DNA of 64,000 nucleotides from a virus (IMGVR_UViG_3300032046_000015:19017-83016); one strand, 5' to 3'; shown: positions 17,325-50,509, counted from the first letter of the stretch. The notes: generated by a model not told the origin, from the letters alone. Made by a program: numbers and translations.

Positions 17325-17398
17325 TCAGGGTGAGTGGATTTGAACCACCGACCACTTGCGCCCAAGGCAAGTGCGCTACCAGGCTGCGCCACACCCTG
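17325..17398 (-). tRNA. tRNA-Pro (anticodon TGG)
   Basis: A complete cloverleaf can be drawn. Acceptor CAGGGTG pairs with CACCCTG. The D-arm is GCGCAGCCTGGTAGCGC. Anticodon stem CTTGC/GCAAG holds loop CTTGGGC with TGG at positions 34-36. The T-arm has TTCAAAT in the loop. The discriminator is A and CCA is not encoded. It is the only tRNA I found. It would read CCA and other CCN proline codons. Confidence 0.93.
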
Positions 17399-35396: not shown

Positions 35397-36503
35397 TTAG
35401 AATGGTGGTGGAATATAGTTGTTGGCACTCTTCAATAATGATAGTTGGTGACTAACAACCCGCTTCAAGTATTCAGGCAGACTGGTAGTCAACATCCAGT
35501 CCATATATTGCTTGCCTCTATCTGACTTCACTATTTCAGATAATTTTTGACCTTTGAATTTTCCAAATTCCAAACGGGCATCCTTGCCGTCAGGATCAAT
35601 GATGAAATTACTTTTGGCAGCTAACTTATCTGCTGCCACACGTGTATCAGTTTTGATTTTGTTTGCTGCTTGAGCAAATGTTCCTTTTGATTGCTTTTCA
35701 CTCCTCTCATATACCCATATATCTACACAACCAGTTTGGAGTGAAGCCATTATTCTGATGGCTATCTTTTGGTTGCTCATATCATAACACTTGGATACTT
35801 CCTGTAATACCACACCAAGAACATCTACATTTCTGTGGTGTAATAACACATCTTTATCAAGTCCAACTATTTTCTTCAAAGGCATTCCAACAGATTTGCC
35901 AAATTCGTACACAAGCGGTTGGAATGATACATCATAAACATCTCTGGCCGCATCAAATTCAAATTTGATTTCACCATTCGCTATTTGCGCTGTAGTGAAC
36001 CCATGCGACATGATCTGTTCAACGATTATAGTCTCAAGATCATTCCTTGATTGTACAACTACCAGATTGGTAATAGTAAAGAACACAGGTTCAGCGGCCA
36101 TGATTCTGTCCTTGACCTCTCCTCTGTGTTCAGGTTCAACATCAGGCGGCATGTTTACATATTCTCTTTTGAAGTCTATCCTTGCCGGATCAATGCCAAG
36201 ATATTTTCCATCTCCAACGTACACACCATCATGATCTGCTGTAGGAGTTGTGTTGATTGGCTGGTTTGGTTCTTTGTGTGTTTCTTCAACAGGTATCTTG
36301 GACTTGTCTATCTGAAAGGATAGTCCGCACTCAGTACAGGTATAATTGGTGCTGCCCACTGAGCCATACACCCTTTGCATTGTTGCTCCACAAGCTGGAC
36401 ACTTGAAACGGTTTGAGTTGATCCATTCCACTTCCAGTTTATTGCCCTTCTTGACCAGACCTTCTAATTGCCATCGCTTTCTGGCTGATTCCAAGCTCAC
36501 CAT
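35397..36503 (-). CDS. Zn-ribbon protein with C-terminal DUF3820-like module
   Basis: This 368-residue protein starts at ATG 36503, seven residues inside a longer frame, because AAAGGA is just upstream. An N-terminal Zn-ribbon (CPACGAT then CTECGLSF) precedes a long middle of unclear fold, and the C-terminus holds LEFGKFKGQKLSEI, YMDWML, PEYL, like the DUF3820 pattern. It lies directly upstream of dnaE, so a replication or DNA-binding role is plausible. Confidence 0.55.
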   Translation of the reverse strand: MVSLESARKRWQLEGLVKKGNKLEVEWINSNRFKCPACGATMQRVYGSVGSTNYTCTECGLSFQIDKSKIPVEETHKEPNQPINTTPTADHDGVYVGDGKYLGIDPARIDFKREYVNMPPDVEPEHRGEVKDRIMAAEPVFFTITNLVVVQSRNDLETIIVEQIMSHGFTTAQIANGEIKFEFDAARDVYDVSFQPLVYEFGKSVGMPLKKIVGLDKDVLLHHRNVDVLGVVLQEVSKCYDMSNQKIAIRIMASLQTGCVDIWVYERSEKQSKGTFAQAANKIKTDTRVAADKLAAKSNFIIDPDGKDARLEFGKFKGQKLSEIVKSDRGKQYMDWMLTTSLPEYLKRVVSHQLSLLKSANNYIPPPF

Positions 36504-37060
36504 GTCCAATTCCTTTTGATCCAATGAAATACCTGCTTAAAGGTATCATCCTTGGTCGTGTGTGTAGTATCTATTCTCATTTTTGGAAATTGTATCCTTG
36601 TAAATATCTTATGTCCAAGCCTGGTCATCTTGTTATATTGTTGTAAATTGATTGGAATTGTTCCGTTGATTCTATCCTTGGCAGCTTGATATTCGCATTC
36701 CATCCATATTATCACAGCTTTTGCCTGTAACATATTAGAATGCCATAAATTAAACAGAAAATTCCAATCACATTTCAAATCCTGTATTGTACCATACATA
36801 ATTCCAGATGGCAATGACCTGTCCAGTATAACATCGGTTGGAGCCATTCTCAAGAAATCACTAGCATACACATCTTCATGAAAAGTATTGATAGCAATTC
36901 CATTGGCTTGTAATTGTACAGGATCAACACAAAATTCTTTGCTCTGATCAGGTGATACTCTGAAAGCCTTGTAGATAGGAACACACAACTCTTGCGACAG
37001 TCTCAAGGCAACATGAGACTTACCAGCGCCATTCAAACCTTCCAGAATAATAACAGGCAT
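36497..37060 (-). CDS. dNMP kinase-like P-loop enzyme
   Basis: This 187-residue protein has the P-loop EGLNGAGKS at 7-15, VILDRSLPSG (DR motif of thymidylate kinase-like enzymes), and an arginine-containing lid region. It would phosphorylate a deoxynucleotide monophosphate, or a base on DNA. It is the last gene in the apparent hypermodification operon. ATG 37060 overlaps the aminotransferase stop. Confidence 0.7.
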   Translation of the reverse strand: MPVIILEGLNGAGKSHVALRLSQELCVPIYKAFRVSPDQSKEFCVDPVQLQANGIAINTFHEDVYASDFLRMAPTDVILDRSLPSGIMYGTIQDLKCDWNFLFNLWHSNMLQAKAVIIWMECEYQAAKDRINGTIPINLQQYNKMTRLGHKIFTRIQFPKMRIDTTHTTKDDTFKQVFHWIKRNWTW

Positions 37061-38250
37061 CACACCCTCATTGTCTCTGCCACAGCTTCTTTGAACCTTA
37101 TTAAGCCTGTGTTAATACTTGACAAATCAACATCCAGGTGAGGATAGACACGCATGCGTGTTGATCTAAAACATCCGCATATGAGTCCATGACGCATAGC
37201 CACCTCACCAAATTTCTTAGCATCCAAACCTGGTGTGTCTAGGCACAGCATCAGACCAGTCCACCTGACCTCTCCTAAAACACCCTTGAACTCTCCTCTT
37301 GATAATTGCTCAAACTCTGCCGCCAAATAATCGCCCAACAAATTGATGCGTGTGAAAACATTTGGTTCAGACAACTCATCCAGTACCTTGTGTGCTAGTA
37401 AACATGCTATGTTGTTACCACCAAATGTACTGAATTGGCTGCCAGGAGTAAGCACACAGAATGGTTCTATGGCTAGTGTGGCACCTATGGGTAATCCTGC
37501 GGCCAGTCCTTTAGCAAAGCACATGATATCAGGTTGGACACCATATAAATGTGCCGCTGACCAATCGCCACAACGTCCATGTCCTGATTGAACTTCATCA
37601 AATATCAATGGAATGTTGTGTTTAGCACACATATACCTGATGTGCTTCAACTCCTGTACATCTGGCAAACGCACATCGCTGTTGTCGTATATGGGGGTGA
37701 TCATGACTGCTTGAGCATTGTAAAACTCAATATCATTCACTGTGTCGAATGCCATGAATCCAGACAACTCAGGAGCAAAACCATTGTGGTGATATGGTGT
37801 AATTTCTTGGTTGATTGATGCTGACAAGGCACCATATGTTCTGCCATGAAATGAATTCTTGCGCACCCATATCGTATCACGGCCAGGTGATCCTTTATCA
37901 TGATTGTATTTTCTGGCTAGTTTTATGGCAGTCTCAACAGCCCCAGTCCCATCATTGCTGAAAAATACTTGGTCCATCTTGTGTATGTTACACAAACGTT
38001 CAGCCAATGTCTCTCTTGGTTCAGAATAGAACACGTGGGGTATGTGTACAGGTGGTTGTTTGGTTGCCATGATATCGCACAACCACTGAGTAGCCTTGCT
38101 AAAACTATTGACGCCTGTGTCGCAATACCAGTCAATCACGTTGTTGTATGTTACGTTTGTGACCATATCGTGCGCCACAGTTTTTGGATTGCGTGATATT
38201 ATCTCAAAAGGATAATGGACAACTGTGTCCATGATTCTACTTGGTTTCAT
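37060..38250 (-). CDS. Class III PLP-dependent aminotransferase
   Basis: This 396-residue protein has the family motifs in order: GTGAVETAIKLARK at about 101, LIFDEVQSGHGRCG with D218, and MCFAKGLAAGLPIGA with PLP-lysine K247. Related enzymes use ornithine, acetylornithine or other omega-amino acids with 2-oxoglutarate. A full-length aminotransferase is rare in phages; with its ThyX-like, NTPase and kinase neighbours it may modify a nucleotide base with an amino group. The substrate is unknown. Confidence 0.85.
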   Translation of the reverse strand: MKPSRIMDTVVHYPFEIISRNPKTVAHDMVTNVTYNNVIDWYCDTGVNSFSKATQWLCDIMATKQPPVHIPHVFYSEPRETLAERLCNIHKMDQVFFSNDGTGAVETAIKLARKYNHDKGSPGRDTIWVRKNSFHGRTYGALSASINQEITPYHHNGFAPELSGFMAFDTVNDIEFYNAQAVMITPIYDNSDVRLPDVQELKHIRYMCAKHNIPLIFDEVQSGHGRCGDWSAAHLYGVQPDIMCFAKGLAAGLPIGATLAIEPFCVLTPGSQFSTFGGNNIACLLAHKVLDELSEPNVFTRINLLGDYLAAEFEQLSRGEFKGVLGEVRWTGLMLCLDTPGLDAKKFGEVAMRHGLICGCFRSTRMRVYPHLDVDLSSINTGLIRFKEAVAETMRV

Positions 38251-39196
38251 TGTTGTTTATCCTCTTGCCTGTCCATACATCCCTGCCCCAGAATGATTGA
38301 TAATCTTCATGGCGTTGAGTTGTGAAACTCCTATATGTTTCAACTGGTGGACGTTGTTGATACAGTTCATAATGTTGGAACAATGGGCACATTGGCATGT
38401 TGTCCTCTCCTGATACACGCCTTTCATTCTCATGAATGAAGTGACAACCGTTATATGTGTCACCTTCCATACATGGTGGACTTGCCATTTCATAAAACAC
38501 TGGATGGACTTTGGTGGCCGTTTCAGACACAATTCCTTGGATGATTGGCCCCCACAATCCCAACTGCAGTATCCAACATGATCTCTTGCCGATTATGTGG
38601 AGCATGCTGTTGATGTTCATCGTCCATGATATTCTGTGTTGCGCTCCAAGTGGCATCAAATCACGGGCATCTTCCATTGGCACTCCAGCATCAACCAAAT
38701 CCTTGTACAGCTTTTGAATCTCTCTCATAGCAATGTGGTATGCGTTGTGTAGGATTGGGTTGCTATGTTGAAGTGCTTTGATTGTGTCGGCAACACGATA
38801 TGCGCCATCATCAGCAAAGTGTTCCATGGATAGTATCCGCATAGATTGACTCCACCAGCTTGAATCTGCTTGGTTGGGCACTATGTCCATTCCTATCCTA
38901 TCATCATGTTTGTGGCCTATTCTGTGTCTGACTGCTTGTTCACGCCAGCTAACACTCACCCCTTCCATCATGAATGTGAAATATATGGATTCACTGACAG
39001 GTATCTTTTGCGCCACCACTTTTCTGAATAAGTCAATCAACCCACCGCTGCCCATGTGATCGTCAGGATCACGTGCGCCTTGAGCAACTTGCTCAGGAGT
39101 GATCAACTGGTTGTTGGTTTTGCTTGCCCACCATATGCTGTATAAGGTTTCAAGCGGCAACCTTGTCCATGATATTAGTGTCACTTTTGGTTCCAT
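38237..39196 (-). CDS. ThyX-like thymidylate synthase homologue with altered motif
   Basis: This 319-residue protein resembles flavin-dependent thymidylate synthase: YFTFMMEGVSVSWREQAVRHR with RHR at 90-92. In canonical ThyX the motif is RHR-x7-S, but here R stands at the Ser place, and helices around it differ. A catalytic change, such as a hydroxymethylase making 5-hydroxymethyl-dUMP, is possible. The C-terminal half adds Cys/His residues (SPPCMEGDTYNGCHF). GAGG precedes ATG 39196. Confidence 0.6.
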   Translation of the reverse strand: MEPKVTLISWTRLPLETLYSIWWASKTNNQLITPEQVAQGARDPDDHMGSGGLIDLFRKVVAQKIPVSESIYFTFMMEGVSVSWREQAVRHRIGHKHDDRIGMDIVPNQADSSWWSQSMRILSMEHFADDGAYRVADTIKALQHSNPILHNAYHIAMREIQKLYKDLVDAGVPMEDARDLMPLGAQHRISWTMNINSMLHIIGKRSCWILQLGLWGPIIQGIVSETATKVHPVFYEMASPPCMEGDTYNGCHFIHENERRVSGEDNMPMCPLFQHYELYQQRPPVETYRSFTTQRHEDYQSFWGRDVWTGKRINNNETK

Positions 39197-39209
39197 AGAT
39201 TTTTGCGCC

Positions 39210-40103
39210 TCACTTTTCTTGTTTATTTATTGGCAGCAATTGTGCTATTGCTTTTAACACAGCTGGCCAATTATGTACAATCACTACTTTGCCCATAAAA
39301 GGCTCAAAGGAATGGATGTTGGATTCACTACCATTGTACCATACCACACCCAAACCCATCTTGCTCAAATCATGAACATGCTTGAAGGAATTTTCAACCA
39401 CGCACACTCTATCTAGCTTCAATCTGGACAATGCCTCACACTTGTCCCTCTCCCATAAAATGAAATCAACAACTATATTGTGTTGCTTCAACCACGTCAG
39501 TGTGTCTGTATATATTGTGTTAATTAAGTGTGCTGGTCTGGCTGTTAGTATCCCAACCTGATATCCCAATTCTCTTAAATGCTGTATTCCGTTGACAGCG
39601 CCATCAATAGTAGGCAACAAGCCATAACCACCTACCATCCTAAAGTCATGTTTGGCATCCTCATGATCTTTATGAGTGGGGTTGTCTATCCTTCTGGCTT
39701 GTAGCCACTGCGCTTCATAGGCAGCAAATCCGGTGGCATAATCAGCCACTACATCATCCATGTCTAGCACAATTATCTTATGTGGGCTTGTTATATCGGA
39801 TAACCACCTGACGTCAACCAAATCAGACTTGGCATAAAATGCTTCAGCAAACTCCTCTGGTTCTATGCCTAAGCAAATCATTAAAGCCAGCAGGTGCTTG
39901 TAAACGTCCACGCACTCTATCAAAGCCTGTCTCCTATCTGCTTGGTTGTCCCGCACATTCTGTTTCAACAACCCCAAAGCCTTCTTGATCTCCACTGCCT
40001 CTTCATGCAATCCGTGTATGTGCTCCAAGAGTGCTTGAGATAAATCTACAACAGGCCAGTGTCGTTGTTGAATTTTCTGACGTTCCCACATTTCTTTAAG
40101 CAT
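39210..40103 (-). CDS. NTP pyrophosphohydrolase-HAD phosphatase fusion
   Basis: This 297-residue protein has two parts. Residues about 15-100 form an all-alpha nucleotide pyrophosphohydrolase-like domain (GLHEEAVEIKKAL, then QALIECVDVYKHLLALM and FYAKSDLVDVRW). Residues about 108-290 form a HAD phosphatase (VLDMDDVVADYA, GILTARPAH). Together they would convert a dNTP to a nucleoside via the monophosphate, the type of step phages use to remove unmodified nucleotides from the pool. Confidence 0.7.
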   Translation of the reverse strand: MLKEMWERQKIQQRHWPVVDLSQALLEHIHGLHEEAVEIKKALGLLKQNVRDNQADRRQALIECVDVYKHLLALMICLGIEPEEFAEAFYAKSDLVDVRWLSDITSPHKIIVLDMDDVVADYATGFAAYEAQWLQARRIDNPTHKDHEDAKHDFRMVGGYGLLPTIDGAVNGIQHLRELGYQVGILTARPAHLINTIYTDTLTWLKQHNIVVDFILWERDKCEALSRLKLDRVCVVENSFKHVHDLSKMGLGVVWYNGSESNIHSFEPFMGKVVIVHNWPAVLKAIAQLLPINKQEK

Positions 40104-44187: not shown

Positions 44188-44544
44188 TTACTTTCTGGCT
44201 GCGTTGACTATGTTGTTGATTGCTTCATTGATCTTGCTTACAGCAGATGATAAATCTTTGTATGTGGCGAATAGTGTGGCACGCTCTGGTGTAATGTCAT
44301 GAACCTGATTCTTGGGTATGCGAACATAGTCACTTTTATCCACTAATTTCCACACGTCCGTGATCTTTGTTCCCTGTGTTGTTTCTATGTGTCCAATCAG
44401 ACTGTATTTGTCCTCAAGTGTTTTTGGTCCAATTGCGAACACATACTCTGGTGTCTCTTTAACATACACCATCTCTATGATTGCCGGTTGCCAATCGCCA
44501 TACCTTCTGTATGACACCCAATAAAATTTGTCTCCTCTGTTCAT
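44188..44544 (-). CDS. Uncharacterised protein
   Basis: This 118-residue protein (MNRGDKFYWVSYRRYG, then AIIEMVYVKETPEYVFAIG) is beta-rich with a C-terminal helix. It follows hammerhead element 2. The start ATG 44544 has AAAGGA upstream; an in-frame ATG seven codons earlier is possible. Function unknown. Confidence 0.6.
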   Translation of the reverse strand: MNRGDKFYWVSYRRYGDWQPAIIEMVYVKETPEYVFAIGPKTLEDKYSLIGHIETTQGTKITDVWKLVDKSDYVRIPKNQVHDITPERATLFATYKDLSSAVSKINEAINNIVNAARK

Positions 44545-44573
44545 TTCCTTGTACCATCCTTTCATGTGTTAAA

Positions 44574-44655
44574 TTCTGGTGACTTGCCATCATCAGGCCA
44601 ACGGTGGTCAACCATTGACGACATCCGCTGTGTGTAGCGGATGTTTCGGCATGCT
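44574..44655 (-). ncRNA. Hammerhead ribozyme element 2, type II
   Basis: Minus strand: GAAAC (44643-44647), stem III ACATCCGCT/AGCGGATGT, GUC (44620-44622), stem I CAATGG/CCGTTG with loop UUGACCA, core CUGAUGA (44590-44596), stem II GGCA/UGCC. All core nucleotides fit. The UUGAC loop can pair with GUCA beyond the core. It lies between two small genes, just after the upstream stop. Confidence 0.8.
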
Positions 44656-44861: not shown

Positions 44862-45171
44862 TGGACATCCTTTCATATGTGATTTCAGAATACACTCTGA
44901 TTGTTTCATATCTTGATGCGAATCCAAGTGGCCCTTTTTGTGGATAATTCACAGCCAAACCCCAGTGCCTTATTTTTGTCACTTTGGGAGCAGACATTTT
45001 CAGCCACCTATTGCCATGCTTTTGCCAAGCCTTCTGCGCTGCTTCACTCCTGCTATTGGCAAACATTTTCACTGTTTCCATATATAGCGTAACACCTTTG
45101 GGCCAGCTATCCTTTGGAAAATAACACTTTGGTATGCTGACCTTATATAGTTGTGTTCCCTTGGGCGCCAT
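44797..45171 (-). CDS. Uncharacterised protein
   Basis: This 124-residue protein (MAPKGTQLYKVSIPKC, then SRSEAAQKAWQKHGNRW) has mixed character and a basic C-terminal end that overlaps the next gene. GAGAGG precedes ATG 45171. No family recognised. Confidence 0.55.
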   Translation of the reverse strand: MAPKGTQLYKVSIPKCYFPKDSWPKGVTLYMETVKMFANSRSEAAQKAWQKHGNRWLKMSAPKVTKIRHWGLAVNYPQKGPLGFASRYETIRVYSEITYERMSNESSDCKSGLAEHRRVGRIQG

Positions 45172-45703
45172 TGGCATCCTCTCCTCTCCGCATATAGCGT
45201 TGTCTGACCTGATCCAAAGAATTCATGTCCATTTTGGCTTTGTTATCAGTTGACCCCAGCACCGTCTGTTTTCCGTTGTTTCCAACTTTTACCACTTCCA
45301 CAACTCCACCCTTCCAACTGAATGTGGTCTGTTCCTTCTGCGGTTTCATTTCCTTTGTCTCAGGAGTGGCTTCAACTTGTGCTGTGGATTCCGGTGTGTT
45401 GCCGTTATTCTCATTGGCAATCTCTGTCAACTGCTTGCGATATTTGGTCAGCATTTTCCTGATCGCTGCCGCTTGCTTGTCTGTGAAATTCTTGCACTTT
45501 CCAAACGATTCAATCAGTGATCCAGAGAATGGTGCGTCCATCTTGTTGAATCCTCTTTTGTTAGTGATGTGGGTATCATGTGTGCTCTGTTCATCCGTTG
45601 TTTGCCTGTCCCACATTTTATTGAGTGGTCTGATCAAAGCCTTCTTGTCCATTCTTTGAATCAGCGCCACCACCTCATCCTCTGTCCATACCTTGTTCGC
45701 CAT
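45143..45703 (-). CDS. Uncharacterised charged protein
   Basis: This 186-residue protein has an N-terminal helical, basic half (ANKVWTEDEVVALIQRMDK, then CKNFTDKQAAAIRKML) and a low-complexity Glu/Lys/Thr linker, ending in a basic tail. It follows ribozyme element 6. ATG 45703 has GGAG at good spacing. Function unknown. Confidence 0.6.
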   Translation of the reverse strand: MANKVWTEDEVVALIQRMDKKALIRPLNKMWDRQTTDEQSTHDTHITNKRGFNKMDAPFSGSLIESFGKCKNFTDKQAAAIRKMLTKYRKQLTEIANENNGNTPESTAQVEATPETKEMKPQKEQTTFSWKGGVVEVVKVGNNGKQTVLGSTDNKAKMDMNSLDQVRQRYMRRGEDANGAQGNTTI

Positions 45704-45729
45704 TGTCATTCTCCTCTCTGTGTAGTTAT

Positions 45730-45820
45730 CCGTTGATTTGTCTCATCGGCACGCAGGTAATCAACGCTGCGTGGACAGAGGAATGTGGCTGGTCACTCCT
45801 CTGTTTCGACAGTTGATCAA
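45730..45820 (-). ncRNA. Hammerhead ribozyme-like element 6 (CCGAUGA core)
   Basis: Minus strand: GAAAC (45803-45807), stem III ACAGAGG/CCTCTGT, GUC (45774-45776), stem I ACGCAG/CTGCGT with UUGAU loop, then CCGAUGA (45743-45749), where the usual U4 is C. Stem II GACA/UGUC fits. The loop UUGAU pairs with AUCAA downstream, the matching change to the others (UUGAC with GUCA). It lies between the protease-VWA gene and the 186-residue gene. Confidence 0.6.
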
Positions 45821-47865
45821 ATATGTTTGATCATGTGTTTCTTTAGGATGTTTAGAATAACAGCAGGCATCTTGTCCATGTCATTGATCACAGCATACTC
45901 TGGATAGAATTGCTTAACATAGTCAACGTCCAAACCTATGCCAATCAACTCTATTCCTGCTTTGATCACTTTTCTAATGACATTATTCAGATCAGATTTC
46001 AACAAGCTCAAATCGGTGCCCCACTCCAGATTAGGTTGGCCATCCGATAGCACTATCAGCATCTTGCGTTTTTCTGTACGCTCAGCCAAACGTTTGGCTG
46101 CGAACATGATGCTTTCATTATCACAATTACAACTACTACTATTATTATCCAAACCAAGTAATCTATACTTGGCCTGATTATAGTTGTCGTTGAAGGATTT
46201 TGCGATGTAGTGTCGCAATCCCCAATAACGGTTGTAGTGACCATGAGCTTGTTCATAGTGCTTCTGAAATTCTTCAAACTTCTTATCGCCAGACTGTTTG
46301 GCATCGCCACAACGTCTTGGATGTAGTGCGTTGAAGCCAATAATTTCTATGGCAATCCCCAGCTGATTAAGTATTTCAGACAAGATCAACGCTGTCTGCC
46401 TTGCCATATGAATCTTGTTTCCTGCCATGGAACCAGAACAATCAATCAATAGCGTCACAGCAGTATCCAATTCCACTTTAGCAGATGGCTGAAAGAAAAT
46501 TTGTTTGCTTCCAGTCCTTAACCTGTACAGTGCACCGTTGTCCAAGCTGCCGCTATCCTGATCCATGACAGCGCCACGATGAGTGCGTGATCTCAACAGT
46601 GAAATGATCTTTGATCGCAACGCAGACACATTCCGTTTGACAGAATCAAACTCAGCCTTGTAGTGATCGTGTCCAACCGCAAGTGGTGTGATCTCTCTGT
46701 CCAACTTGACAGCTTCAGGATGAGGCAAATGGCGATGCTGTGATTTAGCTGTGTCCATTGCCTTCTGTGCCAACTCATCCTTTGTAGCGTTCATCAGATC
46801 ATCCGTGGTTTTGGTAGTCTCAGCTTCGTCGATGAAATCAGCGATGTCCTTTGGTTCTATTGAGTGATTGTAGTCTATATCACCACCGCTGGACTTATCC
46901 GTCAACTTTTTGCCATCAGATTTGGCATCGCTGCTGTCGTTGCTCTCAACCCCTCTCCCTTGACCTGGGCCATCTTCACCATCCTCATCCTCTTCATCGC
47001 TGTCGCCATCGCTGTCGCTATCCTCTCCAGCGTCACTCTCCTCTTCACCACTCTCCTCTTCAACGTCTTCACCCTCATCCTCTTCATCAGCACCACCGTT
47101 GCCCTGTCCACTCTCCTCTTCACCACTCTCCTCTTCAACATCATCCGGTTGAGGAGTGTTCTTGCCCTTGCCTTTGCCGCTATCCTTCTTGTTATCTTTT
47201 TGCTCTTGAGCTTTCTGCTGTTTAGCTTGCTGTTCCTGCTGCTGTTGTAACTCCTCTTTATAATCGCCCAAAGCCTTGAGTGTGTCTCTGGCTAGATCAA
47301 AAGCCTGTTGGTAATCGGATACAGAATTGGCTTTTGACCAAGTTGGCCTTAAAGCCTCAACGATGGCCTGTGCCTCTTTAGGTAACCACGACACGTCATA
47401 ACCCATCAACCTGCCCAAGATACCCATGCCAATCGCTTTGAACGGATCAATCTGATCTCTATTCCTTTTGGCAGATACAAAACCATGATCATTGGCAGCT
47501 TTGATGTTCTGCGAACAGCCAATCAACTCTCCAGATAGTTCACGTTCAATCCTATAATCCTCAAACACGTTGAACAACTGCTTGAGTTTATTGTCCGTTG
47601 TGTTCTTCAGCAAATCCAACGGTGTAGTGCGCCCAGCTTCTTGTGCCTTGCGCTGTACTTCCACGTGCTTCCACTCATGATCCAACAATCCTTCCAACAC
47701 ACTCGCATCCGCATCCTTCATATCGTCAGCATTGACAGGGATGTTAATGGTGTCTATCATGTTAGTATCACACCTGAAACCAGACAGCTGAACGTTGATG
47801 TTAAAGTTGCGTGAGAACGTCCTTGCTATCTTTGTCCATCTTGTGTCCAATCTGTTACCAGCCAT
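45817..47865 (-). CDS. HExxH metalloprotease-VWA protein (CobT-like)
   Basis: This 682-residue protein has DHEWKH at 62-67 and FEDYRIERE at about 101-109, the HExxH plus acidic pattern of gluzincin-type peptidases. A Lys/Gln coiled stretch (205-235) and a strongly acidic repeat (241-300) follow, then a VWA domain with the MIDAS DCSGSM at 475-480 and a later IGIGLDVDY strand. It resembles CobT-like proteins that work with MoxR ATPases; here it may be a chaperone-protease. ATG 47865 has AAAGGA upstream. Confidence 0.75.
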   Translation of the reverse strand: MAGNRLDTRWTKIARTFSRNFNINVQLSGFRCDTNMIDTINIPVNADDMKDADASVLEGLLDHEWKHVEVQRKAQEAGRTTPLDLLKNTTDNKLKQLFNVFEDYRIERELSGELIGCSQNIKAANDHGFVSAKRNRDQIDPFKAIGMGILGRLMGYDVSWLPKEAQAIVEALRPTWSKANSVSDYQQAFDLARDTLKALGDYKEELQQQQEQQAKQQKAQEQKDNKKDSGKGKGKNTPQPDDVEEESGEEESGQGNGGADEEDEGEDVEEESGEEESDAGEDSDSDGDSDEEDEDGEDGPGQGRGVESNDSSDAKSDGKKLTDKSSGGDIDYNHSIEPKDIADFIDEAETTKTTDDLMNATKDELAQKAMDTAKSQHRHLPHPEAVKLDREITPLAVGHDHYKAEFDSVKRNVSALRSKIISLLRSRTHRGAVMDQDSGSLDNGALYRLRTGSKQIFFQPSAKVELDTAVTLLIDCSGSMAGNKIHMARQTALILSEILNQLGIAIEIIGFNALHPRRCGDAKQSGDKKFEEFQKHYEQAHGHYNRYWGLRHYIAKSFNDNYNQAKYRLLGLDNNSSSCNCDNESIMFAAKRLAERTEKRKMLIVLSDGQPNLEWGTDLSLLKSDLNNVIRKVIKAGIELIGIGLDVDYVKQFYPEYAVINDMDKMPAVILNILKKHMIKHI

Positions 47866-47891
47866 TGTCTTGTCCTTTCATGTGTTATTTT

Positions 47892-47970
47892 CTGACAACC
47901 TATCATCGTCAGTTACCAGAGGTCAACCTGGTAAGACAGCCGCACTGTGTACGGCTGTTTCGATATGTCA
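47892..47970 (-). ncRNA. Hammerhead ribozyme element 3, type II
   Basis: Minus strand: GAAAC (47957-47961), stem III ACAGCCG/CGGCTGT, GUC (47935-47937), stem I TTACCAG/CTGGTAA with UUGACC loop, CUGACGA (47906-47912), stem II GAUA/UAUC plus UGUCA/UGACA. The core is complete. The 5' arm begins at the stop of the MoxR gene and the RNA leads into the VWA gene. Confidence 0.82.
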
Positions 47971-49155
47971 GTATCCAAAGATGCGCTGGACGATGGCTTT
48001 CACATAAGTCTCATCCTCTTTGGATAGTTTGTTAAGAACAGCAACCTGCGCTGCCTTGTGAACTCCCAGTTTACCTATCTTGTTTGCCCACATGATAAGT
48101 CTGCGAGTGGACAGCGTGCAGTGGCATTCCTCATGGATCAATCCGTTGCGAACATACTTGGCCACTTCAACCAGCTTCTTGGCCACATCCAAACCAACAT
48201 TGGCTTTTCTGTGTATTATCATGGCTTCTTGCGTTTGTGGAATGTAATCCTGAAAAATCACCGTTCCAAACCTATCCAAGAAGGCTTCATTGAGTGTGTT
48301 AGTGCCAACATATAATCCAGTGTCATCACCGTGTCCAGTCGTGTTCGCTGTGGATATGATTCTGAAATTCTCATGCGGCTCAACAACCTCACCATGATTC
48401 GCAGTCAATACCAATTGGCCACTATCTAGCACAGACTGTAACACGAACAGGATTTGCGGTGTGGCGGCATCTATCTCATCTAACAGCAACCAGTATCCTC
48501 TCCGCATGGCATCCGGCAGGACACCATCTTTCCAAGAGACAATCGCTTGATTTGTGGATGTCGCTATTTCTACAACCTTTTCACCTACAAAATCGGATGC
48601 CCTGATATCACCATGTAGATTCACACGCTTAACAGGTTGGTTGAGCAGCGCAGCCAATTCCTTAACAGTCGCTGTTTTACCGCAACCTGTCGGGCCAACC
48701 ATCAGAACGTTATCACCTTGCTCTATCCCCAAGGCCAACATTTCCGTGACCGCTGGGTCAAGATCAAAATTTGGATCGTGGTTTGGGATGTGCTTCTTAT
48801 CTATCTCATCCAAACCGTTATCCGGTCTCAAGGACAACTCCGCAGCCCCAAACGTTAATGCCAACCCGTTTGCCACCGCTGGGCTTACAGTTGGCTCAAG
48901 TGTAATAACGTTTGCGCCATTCTCTGGCTTATCAGCGTTGCCATTTAAGTTGTTCAGTTGCTTACCTTTTTGAGCCATGCTTATTTGGTTGCTACCAAAC
49001 AGACTAATCGTGGGTGCCCCAAGATGTTTAGCCTTGTAAGTATGGACATCCATTCCATGTCTGCTTTTGAGGTGGACGGCCAGAGTATGGTACCATCTAC
49101 CACACTCTTGGCATTCGATCATCTCATTGCCATTCCTGTCTAACTTTCCAGCCAT
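47968..49155 (-). CDS. MoxR-type AAA+ ATPase with N-terminal MucR-like zinc finger
   Basis: This is a 395-residue protein. Residues about 14-50 hold ECQECGRWYHTLAVHLKSRH (C15, C18, H28, H33), as in ROS/MucR zinc fingers. The AAA+ core has Walker A GPTGCGKT at 154-161, Walker B LLLDEIDAA at about 223, and ISTANTTGHGDD as a sensor. MoxR ATPases work with VWA proteins; the next gene is one. The zinc finger may target the complex to DNA. ATG 49155 has AAAGAGG upstream. Confidence 0.8.
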   Translation of the reverse strand: MAGKLDRNGNEMIECQECGRWYHTLAVHLKSRHGMDVHTYKAKHLGAPTISLFGSNQISMAQKGKQLNNLNGNADKPENGANVITLEPTVSPAVANGLALTFGAAELSLRPDNGLDEIDKKHIPNHDPNFDLDPAVTEMLALGIEQGDNVLMVGPTGCGKTATVKELAALLNQPVKRVNLHGDIRASDFVGEKVVEIATSTNQAIVSWKDGVLPDAMRRGYWLLLDEIDAATPQILFVLQSVLDSGQLVLTANHGEVVEPHENFRIISTANTTGHGDDTGLYVGTNTLNEAFLDRFGTVIFQDYIPQTQEAMIIHRKANVGLDVAKKLVEVAKYVRNGLIHEECHCTLSTRRLIMWANKIGKLGVHKAAQVAVLNKLSKEDETYVKAIVQRIFGY

Positions 49156-49184: not shown

Positions 49185-49262
49185 CTGACAACCTATCATC
49201 GTCAGCGTTTGGGTGGTCAATCCCAAACGGACACCCGCTGTGTAGCGGATGTTTCGGCTTGT
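49185..49262 (-). ncRNA. Hammerhead ribozyme element 4, type II
   Basis: Minus strand: GAAAC (49251-49255), stem III ACATCCGCT/AGCGGGTGT, GUC (49230-49232), stem I CGTTTGGG/CCCAAACG with AUUGACCA loop, CUGACGA (49199-49205), stem II GGUUGU/ACAAGCC with one bulge. Core complete. It joins the 92-residue gene to the MoxR gene. Confidence 0.82.
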
Positions 49263-49540
49263 TACTCTGCTATTGTTACTAAAGTCAAATATCCACCGCC
49301 ACGTTGCTTGTTTGTTTGCGTAACATCAAAACCTATGCGCCTCAACATATCCTCTTGTCCAACTGGCCCACCACCTATTCTCCAACGTCTGCCAGACTTG
49401 GGTGAGTATGGACTGCGCCAACTGCCTCTCAGCCCACCTATTACATCAGATATGGCTGCGGCACCGTTTGATTGTTCGATGATTGACTTTATATCCTCTT
49501 TAATCTCAGCAATCATCTTCAATTCCACTTCTTGCCTCAT
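49262..49540 (-). CDS. Small uncharacterised protein
   Basis: This 92-residue protein has an N-terminal helical part (EVELKMIAEIKEDIKSI) and a Gly/Arg-rich C-terminal part (GGLRGSWRSPYSPK, then GRRWRIGGGPVG). It is the first gene after the 1 kb intergenic region. ATG 49540 has AAAGGA upstream. Function unknown. Confidence 0.65.
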   Translation of the reverse strand: MRQEVELKMIAEIKEDIKSIIEQSNGAAAISDVIGGLRGSWRSPYSPKSGRRWRIGGGPVGQEDMLRRIGFDVTQTNKQRGGGYLTLVTIAE

Positions 49541-50509
49541 GTCTTTATCATCCTTTCATTGTGTGTAATTATCTGGTGACTTGCTTCATCAGCGTCCAGG
49601 TTGTCAACCTGTGACGTACAAGCCAGTGTGTTATTTCAACACCAGCTTGTTTCAGCTTTGTACTCTCTCACATGCGCCACTTTCAGCCCCCATGCGTAAA
49701 CGATTACACATGACGCTCAGCTTATCTGACGCTGTGTTTTCCCTTGTCCCTGTCTCTCTCCTCTTTAAGTCTGTGGGCTTGCTCCCCTGTCCCCACCAGG
49801 CTACACCACTCACCTGTCCACTCCGCACCGTGTGGAAAACTGATTTTTGCTTACTGCCAGACTGGTCTAACTGGCCTCAGGCTTCACCCGTTTTTTGCGT
49901 CAGGCCTGGAAAATCTTAACTTGTCAAAGTGGTGTGGGCGTCCGTTTATCCCGCTCAGGCTTCACTTGTGCACCGCACTATGTCTATAAAGTAAAGCGAA
50001 AAACAAGCCGTCTATCCTATATCTTATATATTTTCATCAAAAACTATCCCAATTTTGGCACAATTTGATATCAATATAGTGTGTAATACGAACAATAATA
50101 TGACAATTTTGTACAAAAGACAAAATAATTTTGACATCAAAATTTCCCATATCATAGTATCCCAAATTATAACAATATTGATATAAATTTCTTTACTATC
50201 TCATTGTCCATAACTGTTGTCCAATCTGATGAGCATTCACAATTTATAACAATTTTGATAGTAATATGTGTCCACTTTGATAGTATGTTTTCTTTACTTC
50301 ATAGTAAAGAATCTTTACCAATTTGATTGTGTAATGTTACCTATTTACCCCAACAAATAGTAATTTTTTCTTACCAATCATTACACACATAATATTGTCT
50401 ATAAATGGCGACACAGACAAGATTGGTATTTGACAACAACCTGTCTGTGTAATCGTTGTGTTGATTGACTAAGAAAATTTTAGCTGGCAACTAAGAAAAA
50501 AGTAGCCAA
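49541..50509. other. AT-rich intergenic region, possible origin or promoter region
   Basis: No gene in 969 bases. The left half (to about 49990) is GC-mixed, holds ribozyme element 5 and two copies of CTCAGGCTTCAC (49876-49887, 49954-49965). The right half is strongly AT-rich, with repeated CAATtTtGATAtnAATAT-like sequences at about 50060, 50171 and 50249. ACACAGACA and TGTCTGTGT form a stem near 50411-50450. It stands upstream of the ribozyme gene series and downstream of the primase-helicase genes, so an origin or promoter is plausible; neither is proven. Confidence 0.5.
49572..49665 (-). ncRNA. Hammerhead ribozyme element 5, type II
   Basis: Minus strand: GAAAC (49649-49653), stem III ACAAGC/GCTTGT with a long loop, GUA as the cleavage triplet (49617-49619), stem I CAGG/CCTG with UUGAC loop, CUGAUGA (49586-49592), stem II AGC/GCU. 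It is the first of the series, upstream of the 92-residue gene and downstream of no gene. Confidence 0.75.

Follow-up and report, generated by a model that had tools for sequence, protein, structure and literature searches.

In many phages, cobS and cobT are annotated as a gene pair of vitamin B12 metabolism, an auxiliary-metabolic reading that has been published for tailed viruses of both archaea and bacteria (PMC8651126). The same work placed cobST in the core genome of cyanophages and considered the 'peptidase' label of viral CobT a mistake (PMC8651126). Here we analyzed one such pair in a 64 kb stretch (the window; IMGVR_UViG_3300032046_000015:19017-83016), which is part of an 83,016-base (83 kb) tailed-phage virus record; the analysis also took in the other 19 kb of that record. 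A first-pass annotation had described, at 45817-49155, a MoxR ATPase with an N-terminal MucR-type zinc finger, paired with a metalloprotease-VWA protein. Both minus-strand open reading frames (ORFs) lie exactly there, at 47968-49155 (395 aa) and 45817-47865 (682 aa), and the HExxH, EDxRIE, acidic stretch and VWA metal-ion-dependent adhesion site (MIDAS) ascribed to the partner were all found, reading HEWKH, EDYRIE and DCSGS. The features of the two genes are as follows (pLDDT, predicted local distance difference test of an AlphaFold2 model):

47968..49155, minus strand: cobS-like gene, coding for a MoxR-type AAA+ ATPase of 395 aa (PHROG 249, E 1e-64)
49057..49113, minus strand: N-terminal C2H2 finger of Ros/MucR type, with C15, C18, H28 and H33 (ROS_MUCR, E 2e-5)
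48475..48696, minus strand: Walker A (G154-K160) to Walker B (D226-E227) of the CobS-like protein, invariant in the alignment of relatives
45817..47865, minus strand: cobT-like gene, coding for an HExxH domain, an acidic linker and a VWA domain, 682 aa (PHROG 1576, E 2e-65)
47221..47865, minus strand: N-terminal domain of the CobT-like protein, residues 1-215 (AlphaFold2 pLDDT 94.5; homologous to the bacterial CobT N-domain by hhalign)
47665..47679, minus strand: HExxH (H63, E64, H67), reading HEWKH, residues 63-67, kept in relatives
47545..47562, minus strand: EDYRIE, residues 102-107 (E102-D103...E107), with D103 as candidate third metal ligand
46831..47253, minus strand: acidic low-complexity linker, about residues 205-345 of the CobT-like protein, seen in the sequence and also in relatives and bacterial CobT
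45844..46473, minus strand: CobT-type VWA domain, residues 465-674 (PF11775, CobT_C, E 3e-25)
46429-46443, minus strand: MIDAS DCSGS, residues 475-479 of the CobT-like protein, within the VWA domain

The CobS-like protein matched AAA_5/MoxR-type ATPases (E 1e-24), CbbQ_C and the CobS of PDB entry 9ujv (E 4e-43), and the CobT-like protein matched the CobT of PDB entry 9uka (E 7e-17). PHROG 249 and PHROG 1576 are thus matched by adjacent genes on one strand, and a MoxR-clade AAA+ protein with intact Walker A and B motifs is accompanied by a VWA partner with a MIDAS, whose residues D475, S477, S479 and D608 are conserved in 111/111 non-redundant phage CobT. The pair is the phage CobS/CobT unit (PHROG 249 plus PHROG 1576), a common two-gene unit that is usually annotated as cobaltochelatase. 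The first-pass annotation read the features of the pair correctly and missed its membership in this large, named family. That membership is already known; what is new here is how the family is interpreted. Defence-system models gave generic ATPase matches only for CobS and none for CobT.

Part of the evidence for a new interpretation comes from the N-terminal domain of CobT. Alignment-based scans of viral contigs recovered 79 CobT loci and 80 CobS loci, single-sequence searches of the same kind of contigs gave no matches, so that alignment queries were required, and CobT relatives were gathered with VWA-domain patterns or neighbouring-CobS patterns, not with HExxH. The motif is retained by 105 of the 111 non-redundant phage CobT, and a chance HExxH was rejected on this ground. 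None of 80 bacterial CobT, a sample consisting mostly of Hyphomicrobiales, has it, and these proteins read 'GLGDSMALR' where phage CobT has 'GfLDHEvgH'. The two N-domains are nevertheless homologous, since comparison of phage and bacterial profiles (hhalign) gave 97.1% at E 6e-11 over 200 columns, compared to 0.2% for a reversed control, and the solved CobT N-domains matched the phage N-domain in a sequence search (E 2e-10). Pfam CobT was matched by 53/56 members, and the named viral matches to a model of the N-domain were other CobT or VWFA proteins. The domain also occurs, with HEVGH and EDVRIE, in the protein annotated as 'peptidase' that neighbours cobS in T4-like cyanophages.

Conservation in the N-domain is among the highest at E64, E107, E102, D103, H67 and H63, alongside the structural G116, P43 and G59. 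Five lineages lack HExxH: the hairong group, the BUCTxx99 group, the phage locus L089, an Acinetobacter plasmid and the bacterial chelatases. P43, G59, D62, E102, E107, G116 and N120 persist in all five, while H63 and H67 are lost in 5/5 and N99 and D103 in 4/5 each. All 105 HExxH-bearing CobT have Asp at position 103, where four of the five lineages without the motif have Ser, Asn, Glu or Gln, and E64 varies no more than the ligands do among the HExxH-bearing members. Because D103 and N99 disappear along with HExxH from a domain that is otherwise constant, H63, E64, H67 and D103 have the appearance of a metal site under selection, in which an HExxH motif is followed by a conserved downstream ligand as in zincins; H63, H67 and D103 would be the ligands and E64 the base. 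Contrary to PMC8651126, viral CobT has a conserved candidate metal site and chelatase CobT does not.

As a separate observation on this domain (47221-47865), the phage CobT N-domain profiles matched AcrIIA26 (PDB 9zq6 chain B) with E 5e-5 and 1.5e-3 in two alignments. The match covers the NxxED...E...G..N motif, not the HExxH part. AcrIIA26 is an anti-CRISPR whose fold was published as novel, and it may have been derived from the CobT N-domain.

The second phage-specific feature is the finger of CobS, and here too the first-pass annotation proved right. The ROS_MUCR match spans residues 11-44 (E 2e-5; 25.0 bits, just under the gathering cut-off of 25.4), and the spacing of the zinc ligands C15, C18, H28 and H33 is consistent with Ros/MucR. 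The same family was matched by 11/38 relatives at E <= 0.01 (best 1e-6), and a C2H2 pattern stands ahead of the ATPase in 71/87 phage CobS with a short N-terminus. A further 11/87 of these have aspartate at the second cysteine (C18D), two of them also with a tyrosine change; a C-to-D change likewise occurs in the Ros/MucR family. No C2H2 finger was found in 75 bacterial CobS. Residues 11-50 were modelled at pLDDT of about 97 and are followed by a low-confidence stretch before the ATPase, which fits a finger that is a tethered module. Elsewhere in the family, an intein (CLGKGTPVMM...) apparently lies inside the Walker A of a CobS homologue (L074:7239-9446).

The two genes form a genuine unit, as had been claimed. 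With annotated phages added, CobS was present in 166 loci and CobT in 166, and both in 164 of the 168 loci holding either. They lie on one strand in 130/131 distinct loci, the median distance between them being about 90 bases; CobT comes first in 91 loci and CobS, as here, in 39. CobT is seemingly split into two adjacent ORFs in L042, L055, L058, L061, L096 and L149, which suggests that its N-domain and VWA parts may be separable. Furthermore, 957 plasmid records have a CobT-like VWA, mostly from Klebsiella, Escherichia and Acinetobacter; as a general impression, most of them look like phage-plasmids.

We then asked how the pair compares with true cobaltochelatase subunits. The CobS-like protein scored 165.7 bits with NCBIfam TIGR01650 (CobS), whose equivalog cut-off is 558.6 and for which the Sinorhizobium meliloti control scored 651, and the CobT-like protein scored 113.2 bits with TIGR01651 (CobT), against a cut-off of 759 and 1166 for the S. 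meliloti control. CobS_N (PF12556) was found in the S. meliloti control and was not among the matches of the CobS-like protein. An ordinary chelatase pair was rejected, since both scores are far under the curated cut-offs. We consider it about as likely as not that the pair is a phage-type CobS/CobT machine and not a cobaltochelatase; in this particular phage, it might still act with a CobN supplied by the host.

In a tree of the VWA domain, bacterial chelatase CobT formed one clade (support 100) beside the roseophage and cobavirus-type CobT (support 94), and four changes are required to account for the HExxH losses on the phage side. The tree is unrooted and has several long branches; it offers a suggestion that chelatase CobT may be derived from a phage-type protein. 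A broader proposal, which we regard as possible but rather unlikely, would see in phage 'CobS/CobT' a widespread but so far unrecognised class of AAA+ metalloproteases that are addressed to DNA and serve phage genome replication or host takeover, with chelatase CobT as its derived branch, the protease site having been lost on recruitment to B12 synthesis. Should the reading of the pair as a phage-type machine, and not as B12 enzymes, be right, a common 'auxiliary metabolic gene' would be a protein-remodelling, perhaps protein-cutting, machine, and ecological inferences on viral B12 would require revision.

The first-pass annotation had proposed a DNA-targeted unfolding and cutting machine. This is a reasonable and testable hypothesis, plausible from the sequence and consistent with the replication-gene neighbourhood: a primase, a DnaB-like helicase and a DnaC-like loader lie upstream of the pair and a DnaE-type polymerase about 10 kb downstream, and in cyanophages the sliding clamp and clamp loader adjoin cobS. 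Replication genes were present in the fetched flanks of 98/131 distinct loci, with DnaE in 84, as raw counts uncorrected for background. In such a machine the CobS subunits would assemble into a MoxR-type AAA+ ring, each carrying one Ros/MucR finger on a flexible stalk, and the VWA domain of CobT would dock onto the ring via its MIDAS, like NorD-type partners in MoxR systems. In the N-domain of CobT, H63, H67 and most probably D103 would bind a metal and E64 would act as general base, and ATP-driven remodelling would pass substrates to this domain, most likely for cutting. The finger could position the complex on phage DNA, host DNA or replication nucleoprotein. Of all this, the domain make-up, the conservation, the joint loss of the metal-site residues, the pairing of the genes and the anatomy of the ribozymes described below can be read from sequence; that the proteins form a complex, bind metal, cut proteins and target DNA, and that the ribozymes are active, is inferred.

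Several results weigh against this hypothesis. Foldseek of the N-domain against the PDB gave nothing significant (best E 0.3), and hence no zincin fold, from a fold library that may predate the solved CobT structures matched by the sequence search. No Pfam peptidase family consistently matches the HExxH domain either, so that proteolysis depends on the motif. The fold is common to a chelatase subunit that works without HExxH, and the metal site is evidently not required everywhere because four phage lineages lost it and kept the pair. The finger is absent from cobavirus-type, ICP2 and cyanophage CobS, as well as from roseophage CobS, which have a long N-terminus.

These points bear on the alternatives. 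The pair could be a chaperone that only remodels proteins, like NorQ/NorD and RavA/ViaA, the metal site of HExxH and D103 being structural or regulatory. Most MoxR-VWA pairs are chaperones, Foldseek places the CobS model (pLDDT 89.5) with CbbQ and NorQ as best folds, and the missing peptidase match and the retention of the pair without the metal site in several lineages would be expected. Yet a purely structural site seldom needs a full HExxH, and the catalytic-type E64 equals the ligands in invariance among HExxH-bearing members; we consider this explanation somewhat improbable, though a serious one. A role in virion maturation, in which the pair would assemble and trim structural proteins, has been suggested for jumbo phages with a pair of the same domain order, and an archaeal virus MoxR-VWA pair cited there functions in tail assembly (PMC7824862). 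This is a good deal less probable, as the genes sit amid replication genes here and in most relatives and the finger points to nucleic acid.

About equally improbable is that phage CobS/CobT act as auxiliary metabolic proteins which, together with a host CobN, make cobalamin for a class II ribonucleotide reductase. Both proteins are true homologues of CobS and CobT, the large subunit of ribonucleotide reductase is present in 5/9 records, and some hosts have the pathway, Rhizobium and roseobacters being among those that possess it. However, that subunit was not found in this record (possibly incomplete) nor in three relatives, CobN was found neither in this record nor in 8 related phages, and the scores are far under the chelatase cut-offs. 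The Escherichia coli control has no CobN, yet E. coli phages and plasmids bear the pair, among them the K-12 phage PhiR41_1 with HEVAH. Synthesis of B12 also leaves the phage-specific finger and HExxH unexplained. Because the finger and the metal site are absent from the bacterial proteins checked, a phage-specific machine beside DNA replication is more likely than B12 enzymes.

The genes of the pair had also been described as separated by ribozymes. A pairing-based scan found five type II hammerheads on the coding strand in 44.6-49.65 kb, compared to 0.1 per shuffled window:

49586..49654, minus strand: hammerhead 1, upstream of the ORF at 49262-49540
49199..49256, minus strand: hammerhead 2, between the ORF at 49262-49540 and cobS (RF02276, 23.4 bits)
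47906..47962, minus strand: hammerhead 3, between cobS and cobT (RF02276, 35.7 bits; predicted cut after 47935)
45743..45808, minus strand: hammerhead 4, core variant CCGATGA, between cobT and the ORF at 45143-45709
44590..44648, minus strand: hammerhead 5, upstream of the ORF at 44188-44565 (RF02276, 28.7 bits)

The cores are CTGANGA or CCGATGA and stems I and III are paired in all five copies. Three copies were listed by Rfam at E 1e-4 to 0.2, all below the gathering score, and the other two were not listed; the best of them, between cobS and cobT, reached E 1e-4 in a 5.4 kb stretch, its 35.7 bits being under the gathering score of 37. Rfam hits to a CRISPR repeat and to mir-1788 were taken as chance. 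Copy 4 has an 8-bp complementarity between loop I and the tail, equalled by 0.3% of shuffles; the other four have a 4-bp pairing that is not significant alone. The spacing is regular, as each ribozyme begins 6-10 bp past the stop codon wherever an upstream ORF exists, and cutting is predicted 54-76 nt ahead of the next start codon, after about 49617, 49230, 47935, 45774 and 44620. Self-cleavage would thereby split a long transcript into single-gene mRNAs, each bounded by a hairpin on either side.

Across the other fetched loci (2.0 Mb) the scan gave three hits, two chance-like and one convincing; the latter is a type II hammerhead at L030:2206-2280, in another phage contig with the pair. A 21-base hammerhead pattern search gave no matches. 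Hammerhead 3 does separate cobS from cobT, but the ribozymes are special to this phage, and they were rejected as a component of the machine because they are not conserved with the pair. Hammerheads flanking single genes have been published for prophages, with cleavage demonstrated (PMC3088659), so the copies described here add one more case to an arrangement already known.

Elsewhere in the window, the genes at 36497-40103 form a run of dTMP-kinase-like, aminotransferase, thymidylate-synthase-like and deoxyribonucleotidase/kinase-like genes, which could be a base-modification pathway for phage DNA. A tRNA gene lies on the minus strand at 17325-17398.

Compared to known systems, the pair is closest to the other phage CobS/CobT (PHROG 249; PHROG 1576/5298/17276; SSU5, nickie/hairong, RHEph10, ICP2 and CRP-810), with which it shares the adjacent genes, the domain order and usually the replication context. 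The finger is common to this CobS and the SSU5, nickie and BUCTxx99 types, and the HExxH to most phage pairs. It differs from the named phage pairs in its CobS, which is about 28% identical to theirs (49% to its nearest IMG/VR relative), in the order CobS then CobT, and in the nearby hammerheads, which elsewhere are convincing only in L030. These have the same permuted layout as the prophage type II clusters, with several copies around single genes (PMC3088659, RF02276), but score under the Rfam gathering score, and one has the core CCGATGA. A group 2.2 jumbo phage pair resembles it by description, in that a MoxR ATPase is accompanied by a vWA protein whose N-terminal domain is a metallopeptidase; a virion role was proposed for that pair, and the text consulted mentions no finger (PMC7824862). 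In NorQ/NorD, CbbQ/CbbO, RavA/ViaA and Mdn1 (midasin), too, a MoxR AAA+ protein works with a VWA partner, or a VWA domain, that has a MIDAS. To our knowledge, these have neither an HExxH domain nor a DNA-binding-type finger. Finally, the aerobic cobaltochelatase (TIGR01650, TIGR01651; PDB 9uka, 9ujv and 21vu) shares the AAA+ core, the N-domain (by profile), the acidic linker and the VWA domain, and requires CobN; its CobT lacks HExxH and D103, and its CobS has CobS_N (PF12556) in place of the finger. As judged from these sequences, the two features stressed by the first-pass annotation, the finger and the HExxH, are exactly those that distinguish phage CobS/CobT from the chelatase.

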